From Tetrahymena thermophila SB210 (lineage: Eukaryota > Ciliophora > Oligohymenophorea > Hymenostomatida > Tetrahymenidae), in contig NW_002476166.1 in the NCBI RefSeq assembly GCF_000189635.1, positions 104,335-168,334 on the forward strand: 64,000 nt of DNA, written 5' to 3'. The notes beneath the pieces are model-generated. The model saw only the letters and a program-made list of their open reading frames with translations, was not told where the DNA came from and did not search any database. Position numbers and translations under genes: made by a program. The stretch's first letter is position 1, and the number at the start of each line of letters is the position of its first letter. Shown here piece after piece: positions 3,001 to 64,000 of the stretch.

Positions 3001-3275
3001 TAATTTTTATGGATATAAACATGCCTTAAAAAAGTGGTTACGAAGTAGCTCGGGAAATAAAATTCTTCTATAATAATAATGAAATTTTAGAACAAATAAA
3101 GCCAACTATTATTGCATGCAGTGCTTACAACGGTGAAGAGGACAAAAAGAAAGCTTATACTCATGGTATGGTAGATTTTGTAACCAAACCAATTATGAAA
3201 GCAGCTCTTGATGCTATTATTTCGAAATATTATGATAGCACTAGCTTAATCCCATAATAGCTTTTGAATAATTGA
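59..3275 (+). CDS. Hybrid histidine kinase with C-terminal receiver domain
   Basis: Two-component hybrid kinase of 1,050 residues: autophosphorylates a His and passes the phosphate to an Asp in its own receiver. Seen: H-box SHELRTP with His391; N-box with Asn513 (SNALKF); G1 box DTGIG at Asp542; G2 box around Gly574; receiver at ~905-1040 with acidic pair Asp912/Asp913, phospho-acceptor Asp964 (FMDINMP) and Lys1022 (TKP). Residues 1-380 and ~640-900 are Gln/Asn/Ser-rich. There is no membrane segment, PAS or GAF domain that I can see, so it is probably soluble or takes its signal through the low-complexity N-terminus. One intron, 1652-1715 (64 bp, phase 0), lies between N and G1 boxes. Stop TGA 3273-3275. 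Start chosen at the first ATG, but the frame is open back to base 1, so an upstream exon is possible. Confidence 0.9.
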
Positions 3276-4084
3276 TTATTCTAAATTAATATAATAAAAA
3301 TATTTTAAAATTAATAATAAACTAAGAACTAATACAAATAATAATTCAATTAATTATAATTCAAAGATACTGACTGACTTTTATAATCAATTTATATAAA
3401 AAACCTTACTTATATACAATCTTTAAATTATGTTTTAATGAATCTAATATTTTAACATTCTCCATTTTTATTGTAAAGTAGGAAAAAAAGTATTTATATA
3501 AAATCAACTAATCATTATTTATATATCAGTTTAATTTTATAAAAATGAATGAAAAGGAAGTTAAAACTATTGAGTCATCAAAAAATTTTATTTTAAAAAT
3601 AATTCAGAGGGAAATATCTTTATTTTTTTTAAAAAAACATTGCAAAATCATTTAAGATATTTGATTTTAGCTTTATTTTTCTCAGAACCTCAAATCAAAA
3701 TGTTAACTTTTTACTCTAGTTTTATTTTTAAATGGTTAAAAATCTTTGATTAAAAAACCGCTTTGTATGATCATTAAAAACATTTTATTTTACAGTGATT
3801 GAGTAAACAAATAAATTTCTATAAAATTTACTCATTTTAAAAAACAATTATTTTTTTTAAATATATTTTTTATAAAAAAATTTGTTTTAATCCTTTGTTG
3901 AAAAAAGTATAATTTGAAAATTGATAATTATAAGTGAGAGATTTCATGTCATTTAAAATAAGAATATTCTTCTATTATATCGTTTTATAAATTAAATTAA
4001 TTTGAATAATTCTTAAATAAATCATAAATTTATTACTATTTAAAAATATTAGATTAATTTTTTACAAAGAAATTTAGTAGAAAT
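3276..4084. other. Intergenic, AT-rich, no gene seen
   Basis: About 0.8 kb of A/T-rich sequence between two genes on the same strand. It should hold the 3' end of the kinase transcript and the promoter of the dehydrogenase. I see no coding pattern or repeat. Confidence 0.7.
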
Positions 4085-5268
4085 ATGGGATTTTGGATAA
4101 ATCTTTTACTTTTTGTAAGCGGTTCTATTGTGTTGTACTTCATTAAACAGTATTTTAATGGAGGAATATGCACTTTGAAGAAAGATATTTCAAATAAAAT
4201 CGTAATTATTACAGGAGCTTCAGGAGGAATAGGATTAGAAATAGCAAGATGTTTAGCAGCGATGGGAGGAACTATTATATTTGCATGTAGAGATGCTCAA
4301 AAAACTCTTGAAATTATTGAAGAAATAAAAAAAGAAACTGAAAATGAAAAACTAGAATATATTCCTTGCGATTTAAGTAAATTGGATTCTGTAAATTAGT
4401 TTTGCTTACTATTTAAGAGGAGGTTTAGCTAGGTTGATATCATTATCAATAATGCAGGTAAATAATGAATTAAATAAATTTATACAGGATATTTACTAAG
4501 TATGTGTAAATAAATGTATACTTGAGCACTAATTTAAATAAAAGGTACTATGAAGAATAGATATGATATAAGTGAAGATGGTTACGAAATGAATTATGCA
4601 GTTAATCATTTGGGACATTTTGCTCTCACATATTAACTGCTTGATTTGATTAGAAGAAATCCTAGATGTAGAGTTATCAATGTTTCTTCTTCATCTCATT
4701 CTAAAATTGACGAAATAGATATAGGAAAACTCTCTGATGAAGATTATTTTGACCCGTAAAAACAAAAAACTTGAATTATCCAATTTTATATTTATTTATT
4801 TCAATTTTTAGAAAATATTTTATGCTTTGATTTGAATTGAATTGCCAACAAAAGATAAATCAAAAATATTATTTTTTATAATAAAGCTATTTTTCTTATT
4901 ACAGAACCAAACTTTGTAATTTGTTATTCACTAAAGAGCTATAAAGAAAATTAGAAAAAGTAGGTGCTAAGGTAGTTGCAGTTCATCCTGGTACAGTTAG
5001 AAGTAATTTAATCGATGAAATTCTTGATGATAGTAAGTTTTATAAACTTATATTTTACCTTATATATCCTATATACTGGCTCTTTACCAAAGATACCTTT
5101 TAAGGAGCTTAAACTATACTCTACTGTGCTTTAGAAAAGCATGAGAGACTTAAAGAAGGTGGATATTATAGCGATTGTGAGTTAAATACTCCTTCAGAAT
5201 TATCAGAAAATAAAGAGTTAGCTAAATAGTTATGGGACGATAGTGCTGTTGCTTTAGGATTTATTTGA
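4085..5268 (+). CDS. Short-chain dehydrogenase/reductase (retinol-dehydrogenase-like)
   Basis: Membrane-anchored NAD(P)-dependent oxidoreductase of 321 residues. Seen: N-terminal hydrophobic segment ~5-22; Rossmann motif TGASGGIG at 43-50; NNAG; NYAVNHLGHF; the Ser strand NVSSSSH; catalytic Tyr199-x3-Lys203 followed by LCNLLFTKEL; and VHPGTVRS after the next strand. This order is typical of the RDH11-14/WWOX-like SDR group; the substrate cannot be told. Introns: 4458-4544 (phase 1) and 4756-4886 (phase 2). The second acceptor was chosen because only AG 4885-4886 retains the YxxxK Tyr; a second in-frame acceptor at 4903-4904 would remove six residues including it. Stop TGA 5266-5268. Confidence 0.9.
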
Positions 5269-6385
5269 ATTATTGATCAACCAAATTAAATTTATAATAA
5301 ATAAATATTAAATAATTATAAAATTTACTGTTATTTATTTAACTCTATAGGAATATTTTTAATTTCATTTAATTTTTAAAAAATTTTTAATTTATTTTAA
5401 AATAGAATTTATTTCTTCATAAATACTTCTTAGGGGAAAAAAAATGGTTTTCTCTTAATTAATATTCAATACTTTAATAATAAAAAGCAATTGTTTAACT
5501 CCACTAAAAATAATTTATAAACACATTTAACCTAATAATTAGTTAATTATTTATATATTAATCTTCTTATTATATATTTTTTAATTTAAAACAATCAAAC
5601 TTTTATTAATTTTTAAAAATAATTAAGTATTTAAGATATTTACAATCAAAATTCTAATTTAAAATTTTATTCAAAGTATTTTTATATCATTAAAAAAAAT
5701 TTCTTTCATGCAACTAAACCTAAAAATTAATAAATAAAAAGATAAAATTTGACATTTTAGAATAATTTTTCTCATTTTTATTTAGTTTATTATTAAAAAA
5801 TATTTTATTGTATATTTAATTACATTTTTAAACTGTAGGTAGTTTGTGAATTTTAAACCAAAATTAAAATCTATTTTTTTTACTTTATTTTTAACTAAAA
5901 TTGTAGTAAATCTTACAAATAATTTGAATTTAATATATTTATGATTATAATACTCAGAATAATTAATTATCAAAATTTTTAAATTTATCATAATAACAAT
6001 TTTTTTTCTTACGATTTTAATTTGATTCTGTAGGAATTATGTTTATTAAAAATGGATAAAAGTTAAATATTTAAAAAAAGAGAGGGTAAATAAATCTATT
6101 TAAAGATATAAAATATATAAGAATTATACTTGACCAAAAGTAAAAAACTTGAATTAGGGAAAATACAAATATGATCTCCTTAATTTGAAAAGTAATTTAT
6201 TAAAATAAATTAAGTGAGTAATTATTTCTTATAAATTATTTGGAAAATATCATACTTTATCAGCTGTTACAAGCTTTAATTTCTGGATTTGTTCTTTTTT
6301 TATTAATTAAAAATGAAAATTTTTTATTGTAATGATTTAATTAATCCAAAACAAAACTAATACATTAAAACCTAACAAATCTAAA
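5269..6385. other. Intergenic, AT-rich, no gene seen
   Basis: About 1.1 kb of A/T-rich DNA with long A and T runs. No frame looks coding on either strand. It presumably carries the dehydrogenase 3' end and the promoter of the aldo/keto reductase. Confidence 0.7.
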
Positions 6386-7273
6386 ATGAATAAATCAGTA
6401 CACTCTACTAAACTCAGCAATGGTTAAATCATGCCATTAATTGGATTAGGAACTTTTTTACTAAATAGTAAAGACGAAATGACTAACTTACTTAGAGCTG
6501 CATTAGATGCAGGATATCGCCATATTGATACTGCAGTCATTTACTAAAATGAAGCTATAATAGGATAAGCTCTTTAAAATATTTTTTAGGAGGGAAAGTA
6601 TAGTAGAAAAGATCTCTTTATTGTAAGCAAGGTTTTTCCTAACTAAGGAACCAACATTCTTGAATCTGTTAAAAAATCACTTTAAGATTTGTAACTTGAC
6701 TACATAGATTTATATTATCTGCATTTCCCTTTAGGTTTCCCAAATGAAAAGGGAGAATTCCATCACTTACCTGTTCATGTAGCATGGGCTTAGCTTGAAG
6801 AAGCAAATAGATTAGGCTTAGTTAAGTCTATTGGTGTATCAAACTTTAATGTTATGGCTCTTGTCGATCTTCTTAGCTATGCAAAAATAAAGCCAGTTTC
6901 AAACTAGGTTGAAGTCAGTGTTTTTATACAGCAAAAAAACCTGATTAAATTTTGCTAAAATTATGGTATTCATGTCACTGCCTATGCACCCTTAGCAAAA
7001 TACAACGATGTTGAGTCAAATCCTATTCTTCAAAAGATTGCTAAAAAGCACAATGCTTCTATTTCCTAAGTACTATTAGGATTCTTATTGAACTAAGGAC
7101 TTTCAGTAATCCCTAAAACTGATAAACCTGCTAGATTGAAACAAAATTTTGATTCCATTCATGTAAAACTTTCTGAAGAAGATTTCAAAGATTTAGAAAC
7201 CCTTAATAAGAATCAAAGAACCATCGATCCTTCTACTATGTAAATGTGGAATTATGTTCCATTCTTTGACTGA
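6386..7273 (+). CDS. Aldo/keto reductase
   Basis: NADPH-dependent aldo/keto reductase of 295 residues in one exon, cytosolic by appearance (no signal or membrane segment). Seen: the full catalytic tetrad Asp48, Tyr53, Lys82 and His113, in the contexts [19 protein letters not shown] and [15 protein letters not shown]; ending [15 protein letters not shown], the NADP-binding loop of the family. The numbering is within a few residues of mammalian AKR1 enzymes (Asp50, Tyr55, Lys84, His117), so the protein is intact. The substrate cannot be predicted; AKRs of this class reduce aldehydes, ketones or sugars. It lies downstream of another oxidoreductase on the same strand, with ~1.1 kb between them, which does not suggest cotranscription. 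Start is the ATG just before the first beta-hairpin; stop TGA 7271-7273. Confidence 0.93.
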
Positions 7274-8690
7274 AAAAGTAATAGATATCAACCTAACAAT
7301 AATATTTTTATTTTGATGACTCAAATTAGTATTCAATTTTTTATTTAGCTTTGTCTTAGGTTTAGATATTTTTATAATAGGTTTTATGTAATTATTTAAT
7401 GATTTTTTTAAAAGTTTAATATGCATTTAAGATTTATTTATTATTGCATTCCAATATTGAAACGAAATTTGGTTTTATAAATTATAATTTAAAAAATAAA
7501 TATTTTAAATTTTATTTTCTAAAAAAATAACTTTTATTTTAAAAAAATTTTTTAGCCTTTAATAAAATTTATTTTATTTCTTTATTTGAAATTAATTTTA
7601 TCTTCAATAAAATTATAAGTATAGCTGGATTTTATTTGGCAAATTTATTTTATGATAGGACAATTTAAGATTTATTCTACATATATTTAAACTTAATTTA
7701 TAGGTGAAAAATACATTTTCTTAAAGTGTCTTTAAAAAGATTAATCGAAATCATTTTTCTACAAATTAAAATTTGATTTTTAAATTAAGCAATATATTTC
7801 TATCATTTAAAATCAGGAAAATAATAATGTCTAAAAACAAACTTCTTTGATTTGTGAATATTCAAAAAAATTATTTTAATACTTAGGGCCATATTTATTA
7901 AAGTGAATAATAATTTTCAATCAAAGAAATATTATTAAAAGTTGAAAATTTAATACAAAATTTTACTTGTAGAAAATTTTATTTAATATGGAAAAGTATT
8001 TTTCAACTAAAATAAAAATTTAAGTGAATTAAAGTGCAAAATAGGCTTCAACAGCATATTCTAATTTGAAACTAAAAAAATAAATCTTTAACCTAGATTT
8101 TTTATTCAAAAATTAATCGTTTTACTTAAAATTTATAGAATAAATCTAACAAATATCCATTTTAATTTCTTGGCTAGAGATAAAAGTCTATTTAAAATTC
8201 AGGGAGATTTAACATTGATTAATTATGTCAAATTGATAAAATTGATAGAATTTAAATAAAAAATTAAATAAACTTAAGAAAAAAATTTAAATATGAAAAT
8301 TTTCTAAATTTATTTGTTTTTGTAAATTATTTTGATATAAAAATTGATTTTTATAAAACGCTGTTTCAAATAAATTTTAAAATATTTCATAAAAAATGAA
8401 ATAAGTTTTTGCTCAGAAATGTTTTATTAACTAATATGATCTCATTTTAAATATTTATCAACCAAAAAACTAAAAAATTCTAATCAGCTTTTTCTAGCAG
8501 ATTTATCTTTATTAATAATAAGTGAAAAATAAATTGCTAAAATCAAAGACAATAATAATTACAAAGACATATTTATTTTACCTATGTAAATCAAATTATT
8601 AATAAATATTTTTATAAAGATATATTTTTAGTTTTTAATATTTTATATAAATGTTGAGATTTAATTAATTAATTAAGTTGATTTGCAATC
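7274..8690. other. Convergent intergenic region
   Basis: About 1.4 kb between the 3' ends of the aldo/keto reductase (plus) and the NEK-type kinase (minus). It is very A/T-rich with no coding signal that I can find, so it should contain both polyadenylation regions and no promoter. Confidence 0.65.
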
Positions 8691-10627
8691 TCATCTATAT
8701 TGTTTACTTAGAAGAGATCTAACTTCTGTTTATACTCTTTTTGCTCCACCAAAATATAAAGCTTCTTTATTAGAATTCAAAGAAGAATATGGAAGAGGAA
8801 TGTCATTTCTAATTGAGTAAGGTTTTTTGATATATTAATTTGCGTTTTTAGAATCCCCACTGAAAGGATTCTTAGCACTATAAATATCTCTGTGAGGAAT
8901 AATTCTATTACTGTATTAGATATCATTCTCTTAGTCTCTATTTCTTTCATAATATGAATGTCTATCGCTTCTTTTTCTTTCGAATTATGTCGGTTTGTTA
9001 ATATAATTTAGATTGTAATGATTATCCTAGAAGAGCTATCTGTATTAGTAATTTTGGAAGTCTTCAGATATTTTTCTTTTTCTTAAATCCAAATTAGAGC
9101 TTGATGGGATATTTTGTTATGACTGCTAGGATAAGTATTCTCTTGAATTTAGATTATTTAATCTTCTCTGAATTTCTTATTCAAGCAGTAAATCAAATCT
9201 TTGATATTGCTGAGGCTAAGAGTTTTAAGATTTCAATTGTATTCCAGAATTAGATCTTACTCTCCTCATATTTTTCAATTCTTCTGAAGTTGGTGTTTGA
9301 TAAGTACCTATTTAGTTATTAGGAGTAAATTTTTTTATCTCCTATTAGCTATTAGTATTGTACGAAGGTTTAGGTAACCTTTCTTAAAGATTTTTCTTAT
9401 TAGCAGGAAACTTTATTTAATCAAGTACACTTAATTTTTAGTTGATTGCTTGAGCATTAGAGTCTTCTTTTGAAAAGGTTTCTAATTTTATATTTAAATC
9501 TTCTATTTTTTTCTTTATAATAGGTAGATTAAGTAGTTAATCGCAATCAGGTCTTGTGATCTAATTAATATTAAGACATTAGCTTATAAGGTTACTCAAC
9601 TCACTAGAATATCTATATTTTAGGAAAATAAAATTTATTTAACATAATTAATCAAATATGTTAAATTTTTAAATAGACAAATAAATAATTTGATAGTAAA
9701 ATATAAATTTAATTATTGTTAGCTCTGCTATCATTTAACTGAACATGAATGCATTAAAAATTGATTCAAAATTTAAATATTAAAGCATTAAACAAGATAA
9801 TCTACTTTAAATACTTTGATTTAAATGTTGAAGATTTATGAAAATTATATTTTGATGGAATTCATAATATTAAAGTTTAGAAAAATTTATGGCAACTGAA
9901 ATAATTTATTTTCAATAATTTACCTTGAAGGAATTCTTTCATAAATTCCCTTGCCAATTTTCTTGAAAAGCGAAGGCATATCAGATGCAAGGAAAGGAGG
10001 TTTTTGGGCACAGAGTTCATATATAAGACATCCAAGACTCCAGATATCACTTTTGTTGTTATACATTTAGTCTTTCCAAACTTCAGGTGAAGTATAGTAA
10101 GGAGTGCCAACTTAAGTTCTCGCCAAATTTGCCTAAGTTATTTTAGAGACATTCAAGTCTCCAATCTTGGCATTTCTTCTACTATCTAAAAATATATTAG
10201 CACATTTTAAGTCTCTGTGTAAAATTTTTAAATCATGGAGAGCTTTCAATCCATATAGCATTTAAATTGTCCAAATCCATATTTAATTTTCATCAAGGTA
10301 GGTTTTTGATTTAATGCAACTTTTCACTTATTAGTGTAAATCACCTCCAGCAGCATATTCCATAATAACAAAAAGACATTCAGACTATTCATCGTAGATT
10401 GCTTCTTTGTAAGCAATTACATATTGATTTTTGATACTTGCTAATATGCGCACTTCATTGAGAGCATTATCTTTATCTCTTTATTTCATTAATCCTATTT
10501 TGCATCTCTTCATAGCATAAGATTGTCCATCTGATTTTCTAACAACCTTGTAGACTTTAGCAAAAGATCCCTCTCCTAAAGTTTTAATAATATCAAAATC
10601 TTTCAGTTAGCTAGATGAGCTGCTCAT
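8691..10627 (-). CDS. NEK-family (NIMA-related) protein kinase
   Basis: Ser/Thr kinase of 541 residues; NEKs in ciliates act mostly on cilia and basal bodies. Seen: Gly-rich loop LGEGSFAKVYKV (17-28); Lys40 in YAMKRC; HRDLKCAN at 137-144 with Asp139; GDLNVSK at 156-162, where DLN stands in place of DFG; GTPYYTSPEVW in the activation segment; SDIWSLGC; and after the intron RYSSEL...LNINQITRPDCDQLL, typical of NEK lobe C. The last ~250 residues are a polar tail without a known domain. The single intron, 9613-9923 (311 bp, phase 2), splits the Arg codon of IPSR|YS; both sides match the NEK pattern, which supports the join. Start is the first Met just before the kinase domain; stop TGA 8693-8691. 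Confidence 0.92.
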
Positions 10628-21164: not shown

Positions 21165-23957
21165 TTTTTATTATTCAGTGCCAAGCAAGCCAATTGCTTT
21201 GAAAAATAAAATTTAATAAAGTTTCCTATTTTTAAACACTAAAAATTGTGCTTAGGTAAAAGGGGTTACTTACAAGTCTCTCTTCATTCTTTCATTTTTA
21301 ATAATATCTAATATAAGTAAAACTCTGATGAGATAATAACGAAATAACTATTTTTCTTTCTTTCTCTCTTAATTTTTACCTTTTTTGATTTAATTTCCCA
21401 TCTATCTTATTCTTCTATCATTTACAAAGAAGAAATAGAAATTAAGATGAATAATAAATATAAAAAGTAATAAATGATATAGACTGGTTTCATCAGTCAA
21501 TAAATATGAGATTTTATAGGCTTTCTCCTTTAATATTCATCATATATAAGTATATTTAGTTTGTGAAACGTTTAATTTCTGAGTTTTAATAAGTAACTTC
21601 AGTATTTAAAAGTATATTTAACTGCTAAAAATAGGAAATCACAAAAGTACCTCAAAGCAAGTATATTTATAGAGCAAGTAAAGGGATTCACACGATTTAC
21701 TTGCTTTAATGATTTTCTATGTTCAGTTGATTTGCATGTGTAAAAAATTGCAAATAAGGAGGAAAAAAATCCTTCTTTTTTTTTGTGGGGAGAATTCATA
21801 TGAATATAAAGACTTTAATAAATTAGGCAAAGAATGGACACAATTAATTTTTATACGGTCCTATTGCGCTTAAAAAGATAAGCATAATATTTTGTACAAG
21901 CACATCAAATTATCTGTTAAAAAAATTTGATTTGCTTTGTTTGTTAGTTTTTTTGTTTTTGCCTTTCTTTAGATATACCATGATGTACTAGTTTTTAATT
22001 AGGATCTTCAGTTTTTCAAATTTAATTTGGTATTTTTCCAAGCATATTTAAGTCTTACATCAAATTATTATGCTATGTTTACATGGGTAAGAAAGAAAGT
22101 AAATTTCATTAAGATGAGGTAAATATTATATTTTATCACAATTAAAATAAAATAGATAAATGTATCTTTTACATTTTTAAAAACTTTTATTATTTTTGAA
22201 AAATTTTTATAACTAAATACTTTTCAACTAATTAAGTGACTTTGAGTATGCAGAACATCACCCTACATTAGAAAAGGTATTGACAATATATCAAATGCAA
22301 AATATGAATAAAAGAAATGCATTAAGCTTGTCTACATTGTTAGTAATATAAATTTATAAAATTACTCTAACAATATAAACCAAATTAAAAGTAATATTTC
22401 GAACTAAGGCTATATTTAGCAAGAAAAAAATCTTTTTTGCCAAAAAAGAGTATCCAAAATTTTAATTTTGATGAAAGGAATGATTAAATTAAAAAAAGAA
22501 GTAAAGTTATGAGTCAAAAATCACATTAATATAAATTTTAGTACGGATAAATATATTCTATTAATAAACATTTTTTTTTTTTTGAGTATTATTCATAAAT
22601 TAATAAATATTAGATTACATTTAATCTATTTAGCTGGCACGTCTATCGAATCTTAATTGGAGTTTTATATTATTTGAACTAATAAACCCTTTTTAAATTA
22701 TTTCAGCTAGCATTTAAAACACATTTAAGTTAGCATTGTTTCTAATTCTTATCTCTCAAATTAATACTTGAGCTTTTCCTTAGTCAAATATGCTCTAATT
22801 TTATTTTTATTCTATGATAGGGTTCTATCATTTAAATTGAATTTAAAAATTGTTTTTTGAGAAAGAAATACCAAGCAAAAAATAAAAGATCTTTTTAAAA
22901 TCAACTTCGGGGTTCATTAGTCAAAACAAAAATAAAAATCAAATTTGATTTTTAAAAAGTAAATATATACTGAAATAATAAAAACTTCAGATAAAAAAAT
23001 GATTTCTTGGGTCATAAATAATCAAAATGTTATTACTCTTCAAGTTTACATTAATAGAAATTTTATTTTTGTACTCATTGATATATGATTGTTTTTAAAT
23101 TGAGTTAGATATCAACAGGAGAAAGGTTGTTTATCTATTGCTTAAATGATATTTTAACCCATACTTCTTTAGTATTTCACAAAAGATCTTTATGACGAAA
23201 GATCCTCTATATACAAAAGCAGCTTACTATTAAATAATCCAAAAATATTTATACTTTTAACCTAAAATAGTGAAAAAACAAAGATAAAAACTATTTTTAG
23301 AAGCAAAATTGATTAATTTCTTTGTAATTTAATAAAATATGATATGTACAAGTGTTTTTGCTATTATTAGTTTTAGGAGTGCTCGAGTAATAAAGTGCAT
23401 AAAAAATATATTTCTTTGCTTATTAGAGAAAAAAAGACAACTATCTAAAACTCCTATTTTTGAATAGGTTTTAACCACTGTTTCTTTAAAAATAAATTAA
23501 TGTAAATTTGATGGGAAGATAAATAAATACACAAAAGTTAATAAATAAAAAATATTCGGCCTAAGAGAAAATGAACTAGCGATGAAATAAATCAAATAAA
23601 AACATACATACGCGTATACCTTCATACAAAAATATACTTTCACTAATATTTGTAAGGTTAATAATTGTGAAATAATATACAATAATTAACTTTTTCTTTA
23701 GCTGCATTTATTAAAAAGAAGTCTTCGAGACACAAAAACCTCATATGCAATTTAATATTACCATTTGATCTCTTTCTCATATCTAATTTGATAAATATTC
23801 ATTCATACAGGTTAAATTAATAGATCAAAACTCTACCTGTTTAGGATAATTTTAATTATTAATAATATGGATGGATGGATAGATGAATGGGTTAGGAAAA
23901 AGTATATATTTTTTCACTGTAATTTTATATGAATAGTTAGTAAATTTTTTTGGCTTT
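21165..23957. other. Long gene-free stretch
   Basis: 2.8 kb, A/T-rich, without a frame that I can defend on either strand and without an RNA gene. An ATGG/GATG microsatellite lies at 23867-23890, just downstream of the stop of the minus-strand pseudokinase-MORN gene. Confidence 0.55.
23867..23890. repeat. ATGG microsatellite
   Basis: Short imperfect run of ATGG and related tetranucleotides in the 3' flank of the minus-strand gene ending at 23958. Confidence 0.8.
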
Positions 23958-26900
23958 TCATTAGTAGTTAAGAAGAATGTTTTATGACCATTCTGCTGTG
24001 ATGAATGATCCATCACTCTTATAAAAAGTACCACGACCATGTACCATATCATTTTTGAACCGTCCTATATATCTTTCGCCGTTTGAAAGATAAAGAGTTC
24101 CAACTCCATTTTTAAAATCATCTTTGAAATCACCTTCATATTTAACCCAATAATCATTAATTTCATTCATATTATGATAATTAAATGTTCCAACAAATTC
24201 AGCTGGCCTTTCGTTATACATTATTCCTTTACCATTAAATTTATCATCATCCCATTCTCCTTCATAAGCTTTATTTTAAGAAGGATAATAAAGCACTCCA
24301 TACCCATTCATGTGTCCATTTTACCATTCGCCTTAAAATGAGCCTCCATCTCCATAAAAGAATTTTCCTCTTCCATGACGGACTCCATTCATTTTTTCAC
24401 CCTCGTAATATGACCCATCTTCATAAGTCTCTATAACGTTTTCTTTGTTTTTCAAAAACTATATCATCTGAATATCACTAAACGTTTGATTGAATTGTGC
24501 GCTATCATCTTTTCTAGTGGGAGAAGGAGTGAATAAATAGTTTTTGTTTGGACTTAAATTAGAATTACTGGTATAATTCTATTAATTGATTTAATTATTT
24601 TTGCTGTTGTTGTTTCTGTCTGATTATTGAATATTGTACTGGTTTTAGTTTTAATTATTACTTTAAACTTAATTACGATTAGTCTTTTTAGGACTGTTCA
24701 AAAAATTTGGGTTAGCCATCATATTAGCTTGGTAATTAAAATTACTGGTTTCAATTCCTTCTTATATGTCTTAGTTACTACGCATCATTAGTAAATCAGC
24801 AGAAGCGTCAAAGCTTCTCTTCGAATTATATGTCTCATCTTCGTTTATTTTTTAAATGTTGCTAATATTTTAACACCCATCCATCACATTATTATAATAT
24901 TGCTAATTTTAGTATTAAAATTAATGTTCATCTGAGAAAGCAGCAACGTTTTCATTCTCAAATTCATATACCTGAATATTTGTGTTTGTGGGAGGAGTTT
25001 CGAGCTAATCTTTTTGAGGTGGTGTTATTGTTAACTTGTAAATGCTGCTACTACCACCTCCACTAAAGTTTCCATTATTGAAGTATTAGTTAGTGTTAAG
25101 TGGTGTTTTAATGTCTAATAGTTTAGAATTTATATTTTCCCCTTCAGAGATTACTGCATACATGTTCTATTCATTTTAAGTATTATTAATGTTTATTTAA
25201 TTATTTTAAACATAGTTTGATAAGAAATCATTGGGAATTTGATAAGCATTATTTTTTTCTACCCTGTCTAAGAAATTTTTAATTGCATCGTCTGAAGTTG
25301 GAGTAAGAACCTATTCTGAAGATTACTTTGTTTTAGGTGTTTTATATTCAATTACAGCTTCTCTTTGCAAATGACAGAACTAATTGTTTACATAATCCTC
25401 TCTTTAACTATCATTGTTGTTAATTATGAGAATGTTATTTGTTTCACTTCTATCTTCTTCATAAGTTTATTTGTTATTACTCTTCAATTACTCTCCTATA
25501 TTTTAATTAAATTTATTAGCTAGCTTATATTAAGCATCACCATAACCATTCAAATGATCAAATTTAATTTCGCTTTAATAGTTAGTACTAATAATATTTT
25601 CAATGCTATTTAAATTACTTTGCTAGCTTATTTAAGCAAAGCTAATGAAAGGAGGATTTATACCGTTCTAGCTATTAAAATTATTAAACTATGCACTCTA
25701 ATATTGTTAACTTAAATCTTCTGTAACGTAGTTGCCTTTCTTTATTGCATCCATAAGTGCAGGTGCATTAGTACCAAATGTGTTTTGTTTATAAATTTAC
25801 ATCTAAATATTATTTTAATCTCCTTCTTATTTCTTTTCATTAAGTGCTCTCTACAAATCATTTCCACTTTTATCAGTGTGTAAAATTTAATTATTAACAA
25901 AATTCCCATATGAATCTGTACCATTGTTTACTTAAGTTTAATTTTGCTATTTTTCTCCAAATAAATTTGTCTACTTTGGAAGTACGATTTGAATTGACTA
26001 ACTATTATTTGAGACAGAAGTATTTTATGAAATTTACTCTATGCTATCTTTATAACCAGCCATATTTTCATAATTTTATTTACTATTTCCTTTATAAACA
26101 GAACTTGCCTCTTATACATTCGAAGAAATACTACTATCTTGCTAAGTTTCTAAATTTATTTTTTCCTTCTCATTTTGATATTTCTCATTTATTGAATATC
26201 TTTTTTTAGCTTTAAGTTACTAGCTAAGTTACCCCTTTAATTCTTAACAATCTAGTCCTTGTAAAGCTTCAGCCTTCTACAGCTGAGAAAGAGGTATAGA
26301 GTGAATTTCTGTAAAGTTTTATTTAATGTAGCTGTTTGGGCTTTTTGGTAGATCTGCCCTACTTCCTACAACGGGGAAATCGTTAGAAGCTATTTTTTCA
26401 TCTTAAAAATTATTTAGACTTCCCTTCTTTTAAAGCTAAATTTAAGCTTTTGCATTAAATCCTGCAAAGCCTATTCCTATACTGTCACTTTCTACTCTCT
26501 TCATAATTCTTTCAGAACTAGCTGGCTAATCTGCATATTTTTCACCAGTCAAGTTGTTGTTCGATGCAATATTTAAATTAGTTTTATTTTACTAATCATT
26601 CTAATTTATATTGCTTGGAGAAACATTTTAATACTCATTTTACGATTGTGGTTGATTATTTAGGTCTGTTTTTGTAGCATAGTAGCTAGTATAGCTTGGA
26701 ATAATAGAGTTTGTGTTTTTTGACAAGTTTGTATTGTTTGGTTGAGTTATTTCTGCAGCATCAGATGATTATTTATTTGGTTGGTTATTGCTTGTTTATA
26801 TTTAACTTGTGATTTCAGATTTAAATTTAGCTATCAATTAATCAATGTAATCTGTACCAAACTCCTTAGGAGGTGAAGTCTTCTTAGGTTTTTCTTCTTC

Positions 26901-29900
26901 TTCCTTGTCTTCAGCTTATCCATTTTATAATATATCATTTTAAATTTATTCTTGATTTTAATTATCACTTGAGGGTTATTTCCCAAAAGTGCCTGTGTGG
27001 TTATATGATTTAAAGGGCTGATCATTTGTTGAAGAATAATTTTGATTGGAAAAAGGAAAAACAATATCAGAGGGAGTTTATCTAAGTTGATTGTCAAATA
27101 TGTGCTAGTCTATAATTGTGTTGATAGATTTCTATTTTTCTAATGTAGGTATTAAATTATTTTAATCTTCAGTAATTTTTGATGAAGAATTAACAATTTG
27201 CTATTATAATATTTACTGTTATTGCTTTTATCTTTCCATTTCTTCTTAAAGCTTTTTAGAAAAATTCCTATGTTTTTCTAATTCCCTGTTAATTTAACTC
27301 ATAGTGAGTTCATTTTTGATATTTTTGTTAGAAACCTCATTTGCATTAATATCAATTTGATTTGAATTTCTTTTTTGGATTTTATTTGCTGAAGATTAAC
27401 TTAAATTTGAAGATACAGACTATTTAAGAGATTTTTATTGACTTTCTTCTATTTATGCTTTTGATTTTGGTTAATCTTTGTTCTTGTTATTCGAAAATAA
27501 CTCGCTTGCAGGTTTTAGATCTCCTAGCCCTTCAATTAGTTTTCCCCCATTTTATTACTTGGAATTATTGAAATTTTAAGAGCTGAAAGCTTATTAATCA
27601 TTATTAGTATTTATGCACATTTTAGGGATGTATGGTTTGTATATAGTCTCTTACTAAGGCTTTTATTGTTGCTACTTTAAATTTAAAAGCTAAAGATTTG
27701 ATTAAATTACTGGAGATTTATCGCTTTTAAAAAAGTTATCGTAGAATTTTTAATTATCTTAAGTTATTACATCTTATTCATTCCCTATTTCTGTTTTACT
27801 TCTGTACTAAAATTAGTTCCCTATTTTTATTTTATAATAATTTAAATTTAGTTTTGTTTGATATTTTGATGAATTTTATGTTAAAAATTAATATAAATTA
27901 AACAAAAAACTAGTTTAATTGCTTATTATACCTGATTAGCTTTATCTATGAGATTTTTGAGATTATCGAGAGGAGCTTTTCATCTACTATGAAGATTCAG
28001 TCATTGAGTCTGTTTAGCTATTATTGTTAACTGAACTCTGAATGGATTACTATCCAAATGTTTGTTATTCATTAATTTATAAACTACCATGCTTTTAAGA
28101 TTTTACGTTTTAATTTATTCTTAAAACAGAACCTTTTTTTTAAGCAACTCCTGTATAATTTTTTTGGCTTTGAGGTTCATGTTAAGTTTAGTTATTACCA
28201 TTTAAATTGTTAGCTGCAGAAAGGTTGGATAATTTAGTAAGAGCAGGAGATTTATTATCAAACTAGTTTATAATCTATATATTACCATAGCTATATCTAT
28301 TAACAGTAGATTAAGATGAGAGATATGCTTAAACATTTACACCATTTGAAATTTAGCTTTTTTAAATAACATTTCAAATAAATTTACTTGATGAATTATA
28401 AATTAATTTACCTTTGGGGTGTAAAGACGTTTAGATTTTATAGAGATTGTTTATTTTATTGCAATGAAGATTTTAATGATGGAGGTTTCTATTATTACCC
28501 AATTTAAGAAGGAGCAAAAGTAGGTTATCTGCTAAAGGATATAATATCCTTTTCAACTGTTGAACTCTAAGATTAATATTTTGTTGGTAATATACTTTAA
28601 GGGTTAGAAATAGACAATTTTTTTAATGCAATTTAGTTGTTTGAATTTGTTGATTAATTGTTAGATAATTATAGACTTTGTTAGCTATTTTTTTACTCAT
28701 TTTTTTTATTCTGAATATGTTATTGTATTTAAATACTTGCAGATGAGGGTTTTTCTTCACTTTAATTAATCATTTTTTTTATTTGTTGAGTACTTTTACT
28801 TGTTATGGGAGAAGGTGATCTTGAACTGTTTACTAAATTAAATGCCTTAGATGAATCACTTATACTGTTTCTATTATTACTCAAATTACCAACTTGCTAA
28901 ATATTAATTGCAGATAAAGACTATCTTGATAATGTTGGCTTTGTTTCTTATTTTGTATTGATGGGAGAAACTGTACTCTGCTATTTACTCAAAGGTTGAT
29001 ATGAATTCTATGATTATATTTAGTTTGAATTTGAATTTTTTCTGCTCTAAGCTTTAGAATTGGTCAAAGTGCTAAATATATTTTATAAATTTGATTAAAA
29101 TTAAAAATAAAAAATTTGAATTTTACTTTTATGTTTCTTTGATTTTGTTTTGTTATTATGTAGAATAGTTGCTTATTGGAGATAAGTTTTAGTTGTTGTT
29201 GTTATTGTTTGTACTAATTGGTGATTTTTCTGTTTAGTATGAACTGATTGGAGAATAGCTTTACTAATAAAAAGGACTTGTATTTAAAGGATAAGATGAA
29301 TGATTAGATTGATTTATGCTCATTCTTACTTATGTAGGAGTATATTGGCTACTTATTATTTTATTGAAATCTGATTTCGGTGTAATTGGTTATTTCGAAG
29401 GGCTAGACTAATGATGCATAATTGGAGAAGTAGATCTTGCATGATATCTTTATGGATCAATTGAGCTTTCAGTTTTCAAGGTTCTTTGAATGTCTGATGC
29501 AGTACTTTCTGTTTTTATTGGAGAAACTCCTTTGTTAAAAAATGGTTATTGCTTAGTTTTTGTCAAAGGCGTTTGATTCAGTAAGTGCATATGTTTCTAT
29601 ATTGTAGTGTTATCAGGAGTTTACAGTCTTACTTAAGGTAAAGGAGTCATAAATCTGTAATTATTGTCTAAATTCTCAGCTAGTTAAGGTCTCTTTGGAG
29701 TTAACATATCATTACATATTGATTCATGTTTTTCAGATTTTGTTGCAATTTATGGAGAACTAGTTTAAGCATCTTATGAAGAATTCGTTATTGGTATCAA
29801 AGGAACATTATTTGGAGTTTTTTCTCTATTTGGAGTTAGTGATCTTGAATTAGCTTAGTTTTACAGTTTAGAATTTTTTTCGGTTATTTATAATTCTTTA

Positions 29901-31954
29901 CTCTTCCTAACTGTGTCTTAAGTGTATGGGTTTAAAATTTGAGTAAAATTATTTTATTTTTACTTAGCATCAGAGATTTATGTTATTTTTGGTGTTGCAT
30001 TCTATATCGATTGCTATTGATTTGATTCATTAGTCTTAGAAAATCTAGGTGATTAAGATGTAAATGATTAATCTGAAGGTTATATAATAATTGATGTTGC
30101 TTAAGGTATTGGTTTTTGGTTTGAAGATGTGGATGACGCTAATTTAGAATAAATTACGCTCTATGAATCATTTTTGGAAAGCTAAACAACTGCATTAGTA
30201 CTAGCATTAAATATTCCTAACTTTTAAGCTAAGGAGACAAAATCTGGTCTGATATCTTCATTTTCATCAAGCATTTAAAGTAAAAGAGATATTATAGATT
30301 GTGAGTATATATCTTTTAAATTTTCTGCTAGAATCTACAAACCTTCAACATCAACTAAACAGTATTCAGTGTAGTCGAAGTAGTTATCTAACTTATTTAA
30401 ATAAGCTATTTCTAACATTATCACAGCCAATGTGAAAACATCGCTTTTGTATTCGTTATGCTCAGGCTTTACTACTGAATATTCTACATTACTAACTAGC
30501 AAAGGTGATAAATATGCTCCACTGACTGATCTAGAATATTTTACAAATATTTTACTTAATTTCATTAATTATTTTTATTCTGAATTAAAAAAAAACTAAA
30601 ATATCAATTGAACTATTTCATAAAATAGAAATCTTACTTTTTAAAAATAAAATTTTTATATTTTTTTAATAAAATTGATCAAATCATATTTAAAAGTAAT
30701 TTTTTTAATATTCATTAATTCTTTAAATTAATTTAATTTGATTTTTTTTAGAATATAATTTTTATTTTTAAATTAAAAATATCTATAAAATATTTGAGAA
30801 TTTCTGATTACATTTTTGACTGTAATTAAATGTAACAATATGTTCAAGTCTATTATGAAAATTGTGTTTTTAAGATTAAATTTAGTATTATTGAACAACT
30901 AATTTTTTATTAAAGATAAAAATATATTTATATATTATTACTGCCCTTTGTAAATGTATGTGTAGAGAGAAGATTGATTAAACAAATGAGGGTCTGTGAG
31001 CTTGATAGTACCGTCTCGAGCTATGAAAATGGATGATGAGCGAAGACATTGATGAGTTCTATTCTACATTTATAGGTAACACAATCCTGATATAAGGGAT
31101 TTTAATATGTAAGTAAATTCTTTTTCCTAAAATCTGTAAGCATTATCCGATGCATTAAATTAAAAGTGGCTCCTATTTTTTATCTATTTTGCTATTGCTC
31201 CTCTTTTTTCATAAAAGTTGCCTTCATCTTCTCCTTGATCTTCTATAATGTTGTCATTTTCATGAGTGGAAAATACTTTTGTTACAATGAGTACACTTTT
31301 TCTTTAGATTTCTGAAAGTCTTTTTGAATGTAACATGTTGCTGTTATTTTTCACTTAAGATTAATTCTGAACTGCAACGCTGTTTGCAGAAAGACTTCTT
31401 TAGCTTTTTGAAGACAAGCTTACTTACATTTAATTAGATTTAGTTGTACTTTCCCCATTTTTAGGGGTAGCGCTTGATGTTGTTTTTTCAATTAATAATT
31501 TCCTAAAGAATAATTCTGTTGAAAGGTCTCTTGAAAGATATTCTGTTACAGTTATAAGCCTATGAAAAGAAGTGCACATAGAATTGTAATTATAATCAAA
31601 GTATTTAATAAGTTAAATTAAATTTTAATGCTATTAAGTGAAGCTTTCTATTTCTTTTAAATTTTCTACTTCCATTTAAAACTCAAACTAGTTTTAGAAA
31701 AAACTTTCTTAAACGGCTATTTGAATATTTGGATCGTTGGTTTCTGCCAATATGAATATTTCTCCATATATTCTGTGTTCTTTCTTTTCTAAGAATTTAT
31801 ATACTTATTCGTATTTAGGGAAGACATCTATTAAATTTTTCGTCTAGTCTAAATGCTTTAAATCCTAAATAACTTCAAGTTTGGATTTTATTTCTATATT
31901 TTTTGTAGGTCCATCAGCCTACTTCTATTTTTGCTTATTCAATATTTATCCCAT
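23958..31954 (-). CDS. Giant pseudokinase with N/Q/S-rich body and C-terminal MORN repeats
   Basis: About 2,470 residues. Exon 1 (31954-30942, 337 codons plus 2 nt) holds a kinase N-lobe: AlphaC-like VENLKEIESF, HQNLIQLIKYFDY, and YILKSLISGLCYL before the catalytic loop. The catalytic residues are lost: beta-3 Lys is Gln82 (IAVQES), HRD is His301-Gln-Cys, the loop Asn is Ser, and DFG is Asp321-Pro-His. Lobe C follows from ~30565 (GAYLSPLL, then HNEYKSDVFTLAVIMLE, then NEDIRPDF). The next ~1,900 residues are Asn/Gln/Ser-rich with many SP sites, ending in about six MORN repeats (e.g. YEGEWDDDKFNGKG) and a TGA at 23960-23958. Introns 29072-29126, 28357-28411 and 27821-27931 close in phase; the junction between 30941 and ~30580 does not with the obvious sites, so a micro-exon may be missing. 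MORN repeats bind lipids or membranes and scaffold cortical structures, so this is probably a non-catalytic scaffold. Confidence 0.82.
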
Positions 31955-32127
31955 TCAATTAATTTATGAAATAGCTTTGCTATATACAATAATAAGTCTG
32001 TTTCTGCTTCAATTATATAAAATCCTATATTTTTAAAATATAATTCCTTATTAATTTCCTATTAAGCTCATCTTTTCATCAAATAAATTTTAAATTTTGC
32101 AAAATAATAAATAAGCAAATTTCATTG
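31955..32127. promoter_or_regulatory. Short divergent promoter region
   Basis: 174 bases between the start of the minus-strand pseudokinase gene and the ATG of a small plus-strand frame. If that frame is not a gene, the region is simply the upstream side of the pseudokinase. Inferred from orientation only. Confidence 0.35.
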
Positions 32128-32448
32128 ATGGCTTCCAAAAAAGATCAAATTATTTAAATCGCTAATGAATAAACTAAATATCTGATTTATTATGCTATGA
32201 ATTAATATGAAATCATTAATTTACTGGAAAATCTATTCTTATTGCCACTCAAAAAGCTAATAAGCTTGTTTTATTCTATTTTTATTAAAAAAAGCGCTCT
32301 AAATATTTTGGTAATTATTATATTAAAATTTAATGATAATTTCAACTATCTTAATTTATTTATTTCTTTCTCCTTACTTTATTTTTTATTTATTTGTTCG
32401 CAATTTCAGTATTTTTTGCTTTTTAATTACAAAGAAGCTTAAGTTTGA
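32128..32448 (+). CDS. Small hypothetical membrane-type ORF, uncertain
   Basis: 106 codons starting MASKKDQIIQIANEQTKYL. The first ~45 residues look like an ordinary helical protein; the rest is Leu/Ile/Phe-rich with possible membrane segments (ISFSLLYFLFICS) but could be A/T-rich chance coding. Stop TGA 32446-32448. No homology recognised. It lies head to head with the pseudokinase gene. Confidence 0.35.
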
Positions 32449-33605
32449 AAGATTAATGGATAATCATGATTCGTTGAACATTTCTTCTTAATAATTTCAT
32501 TCATAACCATTTAATGTAATATGAATGAATAAATAAATAGATAATTCAACGACTATTTTTTAATTTTTACCTCTAATTTCCTGTTTACATATTTCAATTT
32601 TGATATTATCCAGTAATTAATTTTTAATTAATAGAATGGTTAATATTTGTGTATTTTTTTTTAATAAATAAATTTTAATAGCAATGCATGGTATTTTATC
32701 CTATTTATTTAGCTTTACTTACTTACACTTCAAATACTTTTTTGTTTTACAGCTTAATAAATATTTTAATTAATAAATTTTAATAAATTTATTTATGAAA
32801 TAATGTTCACTCAAATTAAATCAATAAGTATTATTTTGATAAAATATTTTATGAATTGATTATGAAAAACAAATAAATAAATTGAATAATAAAAAATTAA
32901 AAATTATTTTAAAAAAATATTTTTTTTATCAAACAAATAATAAGAATAGTTATTTATTTTTAAAAATGAAATGCAATAATAGTTTTTGATTTTAAAATCA
33001 AATTTTTTCATTTAACCTAAATATTAATTTAAACTGAAAAGCTAAATGTTAATTAAAGAAACAACTAACCTTGGAGAATTTTCATAAAAATATTTATTAT
33101 GAAAAATCAAATAAAGTAATATTATTTTTATCTGATTTGTTAAGAGTTTTTTGTCTGTGTTTTTTTATTAATTAGTTGTTTGTTTATTTAATAGGGAAAA
33201 GACCCTAACAAACTATTCTAGTCAAAAAATTTGATAAAATTGTTAATCAATGGATAATCAAAGAATGAATAAATAAATAAATGGTTTGGTTTATTTGTTA
33301 AATAAATAAAGAAAAAGAAAAAAAATATAATTTCTTCTTTTACCAATTAAAAATTACTTTCTAATAAAATAGTAGAGTAGAAACAATTAAATTGAATTAA
33401 TTTATAGCAGTAAGTAGTATCATTATATAAATAGCCATAAATAAATAGATTTCAGCTTAAAGCTAATTTGTTTAAAGAAACTCAAAGTAAGTAGTTAGCA
33501 GTCTCACAAAGTATTTTTGGTTCTGTAGAATTAAAGATAATATTTTAAAATAGTTTAACTTATTATAAAGCCTTAATTGAAAAATTAATATAAAGAACAA
33601 TTAAG
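32449..33605. other. Intergenic, AT-rich, no gene seen
   Basis: 1.15 kb upstream of the TPR gene. Repeated AAATAAATAAAT-like words, otherwise featureless. It should contain the promoter of the gene at 33606. Confidence 0.65.
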
Positions 33606-39913: not shown

Positions 39914-41707
39914 ATGGGAGTCTGTTACAGCGAAGAATAAAAACAAAATGCAGTTAATGGAAATTTTAACACTCAGCTAGATAATAACACATTTGGTGGA
40001 TATGAATATAAGGGTTTATAGACATAAAATAAACAGGTGTACGCAAATCAATCCCAAGCTAATTCACCATCAAAAAATTAAGATTTTCAAACTGCTCAAA
40101 TTCTAAACAACGGCACTTAAAATTAAGGGAAAGAAACTTATAATATCTATAATAATTAGTAGGATTTAGGAAAAAATAATCAATCAAATAATTCATATGC
40201 AGCTAATTAGAATGGATTTAATTAAAATAGTTCTCCCAGCTAAATTATAAATAATGAAAATATATAATAAAATAGGGAATCTATAAGGCTTTCGAGAAAA
40301 AAAATACCCCAACTCTAGCCATTTATTTATGGACTCGATCCTCCAGATGAGAAAAATAAGCATAAAGAGTTTAGACAAGCCTAAAGGCTGCCAAACGGAT
40401 CTACTTATGTAGGTATATATAATTTATTATTTTATCCGCTTATGCCTGCTTATTAAATTATATTCGTTAAGGTTAGATAGATATATAGATATATAGATAT
40501 TCTTTTTTCAGTTAAATTCTTTTTATAAACTTAAAATATTTCAAAAAAGGTGAGTGGTTTGCTGATAAAATGCATGGTAAAGGAATTCTAACATGGCCTG
40601 ATGGATCTAAATATGAAGGATTTTTTGTCGAAGGAATGAGGCAAGGAAGAGGTCGTTTCACTTCTTCAGATGGTGACATTTATGAAGGTGAATGGAAAGG
40701 TAATAAAGCTGATGGGTACGGTACTCAGTACACAGAAATCTCTACTTATACAGGTAAGAATTAAGCATGAAAGCTATTTTATTTATTTTTAAATTATTAA
40801 TTAAGGGGAATGGAAAGATGATTAGTAGCATGGAATGGGAGAAGAAGAGTGGATAGATGGAAGCAAGTACAAGGGTGAGTATTTTAAAGGCAAAAAACAT
40901 GGAAAGGGAGTTTTTGTTTGGTTTGATTAAACACAATACGAGGGATCTTTTGAGGATGGATAAATAAATGGTTATGGCATAATGTCATATCATAATGGTA
41001 AAAGATATGAAGGAGAATTTAAAGACGGTAGACTGCATGGAAAGGGCTTCTTTACATGGCCAGATAGGAAATAATATTAAGGGGAATATGTAGAAGATAA
41101 AAAGCATGGCAAAGGTGTATTTATTTGGCCTGACGGAAGAAAATACGAAGGCTTTTGGGTCAATGGTTAACAACATGGAATTGGCATTTTTTATGATAGA
41201 GATGGTATCCCAAGGAAAGGAGAATGGGAAAATGGGCAGAGGAAAAGATGGTTTGAAGAAGATATTAATGCTAGTAATAGACTTTTAGCTGATCCAAGAA
41301 ATAAATTATACTAATCAGGTAACTCAAATACCTATAGTTAAAATTCAAATAATGTCTTTGGTGTAAACAAGTAACTACAAAGCAATTCTAATATAATAAG
41401 GCCTTTTAATATTGAAAATTTTAATTAAGATTTGAGTAACGATAGCTATAATTATGGATCGTAATACTAAACACCAAGCCACAACCCTGTAACATTTAAA
41501 AATTAAGATGAAGTAATTATGAATAATATGGGATATGCTAATAATTTTAATACAAACTCAAATTAAAATTATATGAGAAATCCAAGCTATTACTAGCAGA
41601 ATAATGAAAATTAGCAATACAACAACGTGTTTAGTAATTATAATAGTAACGGTGGAAGTAATTAGAATAATGAGCATATATCTCAAACTTATCAAAATAG
41701 ATATTGA
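39914..41707 (+). CDS. MORN-repeat protein with predicted N-myristoylation
   Basis: 534 residues in three exons (39914-40412, 40550-40753, 40806-41707). It starts MGVCYSEE: Gly2 with a small/Cys context fits N-myristoylation, and Cys4 could be palmitoylated. Residues ~10-155 are Gln/Asn-rich. About nine MORN repeats run from ~160 to ~390 ([42 protein letters not shown]), followed by a polar tail of ~140 residues. MORN arrays bind phospholipids and organise cortical or ciliary structures; together with acylation this suggests a membrane-cortex scaffold. Both introns (40413-40549, 40754-40805) fall in phase 1 in the same Gly codon of a MORN unit (TYVG|EW and TYTG|EW), so exon 2 is exactly three repeats. 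Intron 1 holds a TAGATA microsatellite. Stop TGA 41705-41707. Confidence 0.9.
40474..40500. repeat. TAGATA microsatellite inside intron
   Basis: Run of GATA/TAGATA units in the first intron (40413-40549) of the MORN gene. Confidence 0.8.
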
Positions 41708-63804: not shown

Positions 63805-64000
63805 TTGGGGTTGGGGTTGGGGTTGGGGTTGGGGTTGGGGTTGGGGTTGGGGTTGGGGTTTGGGTTGGGGTTGGGGTTGGGGTTGGGGTTGGGTTTGGGT
63901 TTTGGGTTGGGTTGGGGTTTGGGTTGGGTTGGGGTTGGGGGTTGGGTTGGGTTGGGGTTGGGTTGGGGTTGGGTTGGGGTTGGGGTGGGGTTTGGGTTGG
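63805..64000 (+). repeat. Telomere, (TTGGGG)n, running off the window
   Basis: G-rich strand of the ciliate telomere repeat, 5'-TTGGGG-3', continuing to the window edge. The inner ~60 bases are perfect six-base units; further out there are GGGTT, GGGTTT, GGGTTTT and GGGGGTT variants. This marks the right end of a macronuclear chromosome. Confidence 0.97.

Follow-up and report, generated by a model that had tools for sequence, protein, structure and literature searches.

What can a protein do with a kinase fold that has lost its catalytic residues, when that fold is joined through a very long low-complexity stretch to an array of MORN repeats? This question is raised by a minus-strand gene in the window that we analysed, a stretch of 64,000 nucleotides from Tetrahymena thermophila SB210 (contig NW_002476166.1, positions 104,335 to 168,334). 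In our judgement, the chances are about even that the gene belongs to an expanded family of ciliate pseudokinase scaffolds that are anchored to a membrane and assembled through their MORN repeats. The anatomy of the gene and its product is secure as read from the sequence, and the mechanism is what we infer from it.

Using the ciliate genetic code (table 6), the minus strand was translated from an ATG at 31954 to a TGA at 23958, and the frame is open through all exons. An initial annotation of the locus, made from the letters alone, had proposed a single gene with this strand, start and stop, interrupted by three introns that keep the frame up to the TGA. These GT-AG introns of 411, 55 and 55 nt (GC contents of 12, 7 and 13%) were all recovered by a simple gene finder, whose codon table was derived from parts of 12 paralog loci with the window excluded from training. 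Run on positions 22500-33300, it returned a single gene with the same ATG and TGA, favoured no second start or stop, and added a fourth, 111-nt intron that had been overlooked (27931-27821, GTATAA...AAATAG, GC 11.7%). Since the latter is in frame, the protein most likely has 2,454 rather than 2,491 residues.

The N-terminal part of the protein is recognizable by sequence comparison as protein kinase-like, as had been suspected. Once spliced and stripped of a Ser-rich insert at about residues 157-262, the domain scores 49.5 bits with Pfam PK_Tyr_Ser-Thr (cut-off 23.1) and 42.1 bits with Pkinase (cut-off 31.7); the read-through first open reading frame alone exceeds the cut-off of PK_Tyr_Ser-Thr (28.6 vs 23.1 bits). 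Plant PIP5Ks, which are lipid kinases, also combine MORN repeats with a kinase. The head of the window protein gives Pfam protein kinase families, with no PIPK family among its Pfam matches. A search of the PDB with the single head sequence placed B-Raf at the top (2.8e-6), and a profile of 12 family kinases retrieved 2,051 distinct sequences at E<=0.001, with NEK1 the best (6.1e-23) and NEK2 also among the best. Other family members used as single queries found CDK11B or CDK9 first, and the kinase group thus varies with the query. The 12-row family alignment shows almost no variation at the Pro, Lys, Gly and Arg positions that characterize the fold. A single-sequence AlphaFold2 model of the head, computed with the intron unspliced and no deep alignment, was uninformative on the fold (mean predicted local distance difference test score 32.8).

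Three catalytic residues are lost in this head. As the initial annotation had stated, and as the translation and the family alignment agree, Gln82, Cys303 and Ser308 occupy the positions of the beta-3 Lys, the Asp of the His-Arg-Asp (HRD) motif and the catalytic-loop Asn, and the Asp-Phe-Gly (DFG) position reads Asp-Pro-His (DPH). We considered a base error at Gln82 and find it unlikely, because the sister gene L046 has a Gln in the same column. By these substitutions the head is a pseudokinase, and it is probably catalytically inactive. Two other features of the head were observed along the way. Cys127 (window positions 31574-31576) is invariant in the 12 aligned rows, in a C[ST]xFFK-type motif between N-lobe strands. 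Also, a PDB chain named CFAP251 (9fqr_Xr) turned up among the kinase matches; a literature listing ties entry 9FQR to mammalian axonemes.

Beyond the head, a linker of 1,860 residues with 40% Asn+Gln+Ser corresponds to the long low-complexity body reported initially. In the 10 genes measured, linkers range from 136 to 1,860 residues with 26-48% Asn+Gln+Ser, the window gene having the longest. The C-terminal array scores 84.2 bits with Pfam MORN (cut-off 22.5), with five stretches passing individually; by eye we count about six repeats, one of them degenerate, in agreement with the initial count. The tails of the family are homologous: they align end to end with a common spacing and share an insert of the YNExP...DYW-KYEG type between repeats. 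Among nine members (L043 and L046 excluded), the mean pairwise identity is 46% for the tails vs 25% for the kinase domains, and the tail is the more similar part in 36 of 36 pairs. The solved MORN chain closest to the window tail is MORN repeat-containing protein 1 (PDB, 1.7e-36). A genome search with the tail revealed at least 10 further places with E<1e-16 (on C167, C173, C154, C134, C241, C145, C97, C127, C221 and C160), and among the matches listed no same-strand kinase match lies within 20 kb of them. These places may harbour genes made of the tail alone or genes whose heads escaped detection.

Features of the pseudokinase-MORN gene, in window coordinates.
Feature	Position	Strand	Basis
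Whole gene, 5 exons, 2,454 residues	31954-30942, 30530-29127, 29071-28412, 28356-27932, 27820-23958	-	Translation and gene finder
N-terminus MGQILNKQKQKQ, candidate N-myristoylation signal followed by lysines	31919..31954	-	
Pseudokinase domain, residues 46-446, split by intron 1	30206..31819	-	
Gln82 (TAA codon) at the beta-3 Lys position	31709..31711	-	
Catalytic loop HQCLRSSS (H301-Q-C303), HRD Asp to Cys303 and Asn to Ser308	31031..31054	-	
Asp-Pro-His, residues 321-323, at the DFG position	30986..30994	-	
Intron 1, 411 nt, in frame, inside the activation loop	30531..30941	-	
Asn/Gln/Ser-rich linker, about 1,860 residues once spliced	24411..30205	-	
Intron 2, 55 nt	29072..29126	-	
Intron 3, 55 nt	28357..28411	-	
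Intron 4, 111 nt, in frame, missed initially	27821..27931	-	Gene finder
MORN array, residues 2305-2445	23988..24410	-	
Insert between MORN repeats, recurrent in the family (YNERPAEF...DYWVKYEG)	24132..24218	-	

To define the family, we searched the genome (101 Mb, 445 contigs), and all comparisons concern paralogs of this one genome. The kinase query yielded 33 non-self matches at 26 places, of which 20 were taken (those on C172, C122, C341, C50 and C267 and a second one on C295 were left out). Eighteen of the 20 gave a family gene, and L047 and L048, which gave none, were dropped. L049 came from a second search, where it was chosen for an adjoining MORN match. With the window gene this makes 20 family genes, a lower bound, as searches with other members brought up further candidates. 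Half of them (10 of 20) code for a kinase domain, an Asn/Gln/Ser-rich linker and a MORN array in one predicted protein: the window gene and nine paralogs (L033, L038, L039, L040, L041, L043, L044, L045 and L049). Without hand-picking, the rate is 8 of 18, to which the window gene and L049 are added. The Pfam MORN list, for which 150 of 672 candidates were scored, contains four of the paralog arrays as well (those on C114, C65, C264 and C214). Both the Pfam scores and the reappearance of this layout in paralogs make a chance combination unlikely.

The catalytic residues vary across the family. The HRD Asp is retained in 9 of the 20 genes and in two of the 10 with MORN tails (L039 and L040), while Lys, HRD Asp, Asn and DFG Asp are present together in L035, L039 and L036 (the Lys of the last located by hand), i.e. 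in 3 of 20 genes and one of the MORN-tailed ones (L039). The Lys column is unreadable in L038 and L043, both of which lack the HRD Asp anyway. The DFG position reads DPx in five MORN-tailed genes (window gene, L038, L039, L041 and L043) and in 0/10 of the others, and by this distribution DPH would be a feature shared by MORN-tailed members and not private decay. In the tree, the window gene is sister to L046 (support 95/85), and the deep forks are mostly weak. A single origin of the MORN fusion was not rejected, either with the 10 MORN rows (4 changes needed; approximately unbiased test, p-AU 0.183) or with L046 also counted as MORN by eye (3 changes, p-AU 0.355); the L046 tail fails Pfam MORN. 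Three family genes devoid of MORN repeats (L032, L034 and L036) share a short motif type, VQEALEMTRQTIKK, located after the kinase domain; it may be a different kind of tail. In addition, a run of similar kinase matches within about 30 kb was found at C99:258753-285987 (minus strand) of the same genome, apparently a tandem array.

A feature that the initial annotation did not mention is the Met-Gly start. It was predicted ab initio in 17 of the 20 family genes (window gene and 16 paralogs), compared with 2 of the 28 other predicted proteins that reach 150 residues (1/18 in the paralog loci and 1/10 in the window; Fisher p 3.8e-8). For the three others a Met-Gly start was located by hand: in L034 it is internal to the predicted protein, in L036 it lies in a separately predicted N-lobe gene, and in L043 it is upstream, with a junction to the kinase exon that is not proved. 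The consensus of the 12-row alignment starts with MGxxxSK, which we take to be a typical N-myristoylation signal. As the rows were entered from the Met-Gly start, the invariance of M and G follows from that choice; S and K do not. The PS00008 pattern fits 16 of the 20 starts, including that of the window gene. Together with the lysines behind it, the Met-Gly start suggests a myristoyl anchor. A Cys-rich stretch follows the Met-Gly start in two MORN-tailed members, L038 (predicted gene start) and L043:1088.

The initial annotation had guessed at a membrane- or cortex-bound scaffold. We keep this as a guess, and its main support shifts from the MORN repeats, weak evidence by themselves, to the family-wide Met-Gly start, the stronger membrane argument. 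TbMORN1 is described, in excerpts of the source, as engaging in protein-protein interaction and not binding membranes or vesicles (PMC7725318), and we therefore set MORN repeats aside as proof of membrane attachment. In the scenario that we favour, the N-terminal Gly would be myristoylated and, together with the following lysines, would tether the kinase-like head to a membrane, which might be the plasma membrane, the alveolar sacs or the ciliary membrane. The head would have kept its fold, lost phosphorylation and taken on the role of a docking or regulatory module. Beyond the flexible linker of ~1,860 residues, the MORN tail would join other MORN tails or cortical proteins, and the protein would thus bridge the membrane and a submembrane assembly. 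Assembly, possibly by dimerization, is suggested for the tail because the nearest solved chains are MORN1 proteins, which dimerize via their C-termini according to the same excerpts (PMC7725318). Those chains, from Trypanosoma, Toxoplasma and Plasmodium, are the best solved matches to the window tail. Nevertheless, TbMORN1 consists of MORN repeats alone (PMC7725318), whereas the window tail, of about six repeats, contains an insert and lies far from a kinase-like head.

A number of observations weigh against a membrane-anchored pseudokinase scaffold. Some of the controls for the Met-Gly count are short, doubtful predictions, and one of them (L036_g1) corresponds to the N-terminal portion of L036, itself a family gene. 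PS00008 does not fit L029 (Pro at position 6), L038 (Glu at 6), L039 or L043 (both Lys at 3). Most of the paralog MORN calls rest on a home-made hidden Markov model built on 32 repeats, and L043 and L046 depart from the pattern of better conserved tails: compared with the window gene, their kinase domains are each 28% identical and their MORN regions 24% and 15%. Being confined to the paralogs of one genome, the comparison has no bearing on selection on the window gene. Lastly, DFG Asp321 is retained, which leaves room for nucleotide or metal binding and for unorthodox activity.

This last point also speaks for a divergent active enzyme, in which another Lys and an acidic residue would substitute for the lost ones or the head would transfer something other than phosphate; so does the presence of all four catalytic residues in 3 of 20 relatives. 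With Lys, HRD Asp and Asn all missing from the window protein, and the HRD Asp kept in so few MORN-tailed genes (2/10), we regard such an enzyme as unlikely. A MORN-based cytoskeletal or axonemal protein, whose tail would assemble with microtubule or epiplasm proteins, whose head would be structural filler and whose Met-Gly would go unused as a lipid signal, is rather doubtful too. It would fit the matches of the tail to the axonemal chains FAP266, FAP207 and radial spoke proteins in the PDB, and the lack of vesicle binding by TbMORN1 (PMC7725318), but it leaves unexplained the Met-Gly starts of the examined family, including those of members without a MORN tail.

The variable catalytic residues of the largest family and the linker of the window gene, the longest of the 10 measured, would suit a duplicate that is drifting towards a pseudogene. 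We hold this to be decidedly unlikely, as the spliced gene runs over 2,454 codons without a TGA, and its MORN tail shares 37-56% identity with eight of the 10 paralog tails compared, the exceptions being those of L043 and L046. That a wrong model has fused two adjacent genes is very improbable indeed: we rejected this candidate given that the frame is open over all exons, that the gene finder favoured no second start or stop, and that the same pairing of kinase and MORN domains occurs in nine paralogs.

A bolder version of the membrane-anchored scaffold, which we put forward tentatively and consider rather unlikely, is a ciliate-expanded class of lipidated pseudokinases. Its conserved MORN tail would serve as a shared platform for assembly, and the heads would have diverged into interchangeable sensors or docking modules. 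Paralogs would co-assemble by their tails under the membrane with different heads, forming a combinatorial scaffold of the cortex, and the few relatives that retain the four catalytic residues would supply the activity.

No protein pseudokinase of this layout had been known to the initial annotation. However, a MORN pseudokinase has already been described in Apicomplexa, with the opposite domain order, and the layout itself is repeated in half of the family genes examined here; the reversed ciliate arrangement is what differs. According to excerpts of PMC6544628, PfpTKL harbours N-terminal MORN motifs, a SAM domain and, at its C-terminus, a kinase domain that binds ATP but is inactive; it has been proposed to be a scaffold. 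Its likeness to the window protein extends to a kinase domain without catalytic residues, a putative N-myristoylation site (in MORN2), Asn/Lys/Ser repeats and an alveolate origin. In contrast, PfpTKL belongs to the tyrosine kinase-like (TKL) group and has RVxF motifs in addition to SAM (PMC6544628), whereas the window protein has its domains in reverse order, no SAM domain in a Pfam scan at E up to 1, and a family profile that matches NEK kinases best. Other apicomplexan TKL kinases also join a kinase to MORN in an alveolate, with SAM and MORN N-terminal to the kinase, unlike the window protein, and PfTKL-3 is reported to phosphorylate substrates (excerpts of PMC3227725). A Plasmodium kinase with MORN repeats also figures in the excerpted text of PMC4177888.

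Ciliates possess large kinomes that include many families specific to them along with likely pseudokinases, some of them in Ichthyophthirius (PMC3341644). These ciliate-specific or ungrouped kinases are possibly a published pool that contains relatives of the window gene; the excerpts of that source mention no MORN tail or Met-Gly start. In the open-licence literature, with subscription journals, KinBase and supplements outside the scope, no ciliate Met-Gly pseudokinase family with MORN tails was found among the matches listed.

If the anchor is real, ciliates would possess many membrane-tethered pseudokinases of one architecture, at least 10 of them MORN-tailed among the 20 genes examined. 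They would offer a natural series on the role of a kinase fold after the loss of catalysis, in organisms with a cortex of alveolar sacs, and an independent counterpart to the reversed MORN-pseudokinase order of Apicomplexa.

Elsewhere in the window, a second MORN gene was found about 8 kb from the pseudokinase gene (39914-41707, plus strand; predicted 534 residues, nine Pfam stretches). It also starts with Met-Gly, with a Cys nearby (MGVCYSEE), a candidate for myristoylation and palmitoylation. A predicted kinase gene at 109-10627 (minus strand; Pfam Pkinase 203 bits) retains HRD and N, with DLN in place of DFG. A scan of the window for tRNA genes gave none. The window is the right end of the contig. 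GGGGTT telomere repeats occupy 63807-63890; the array starts out regular and becomes irregular towards the contig end (64000), the irregular stretch being perhaps a read-consensus artefact. Together with the genetic code, these repeats suggest a Tetrahymena-like macronuclear chromosome.

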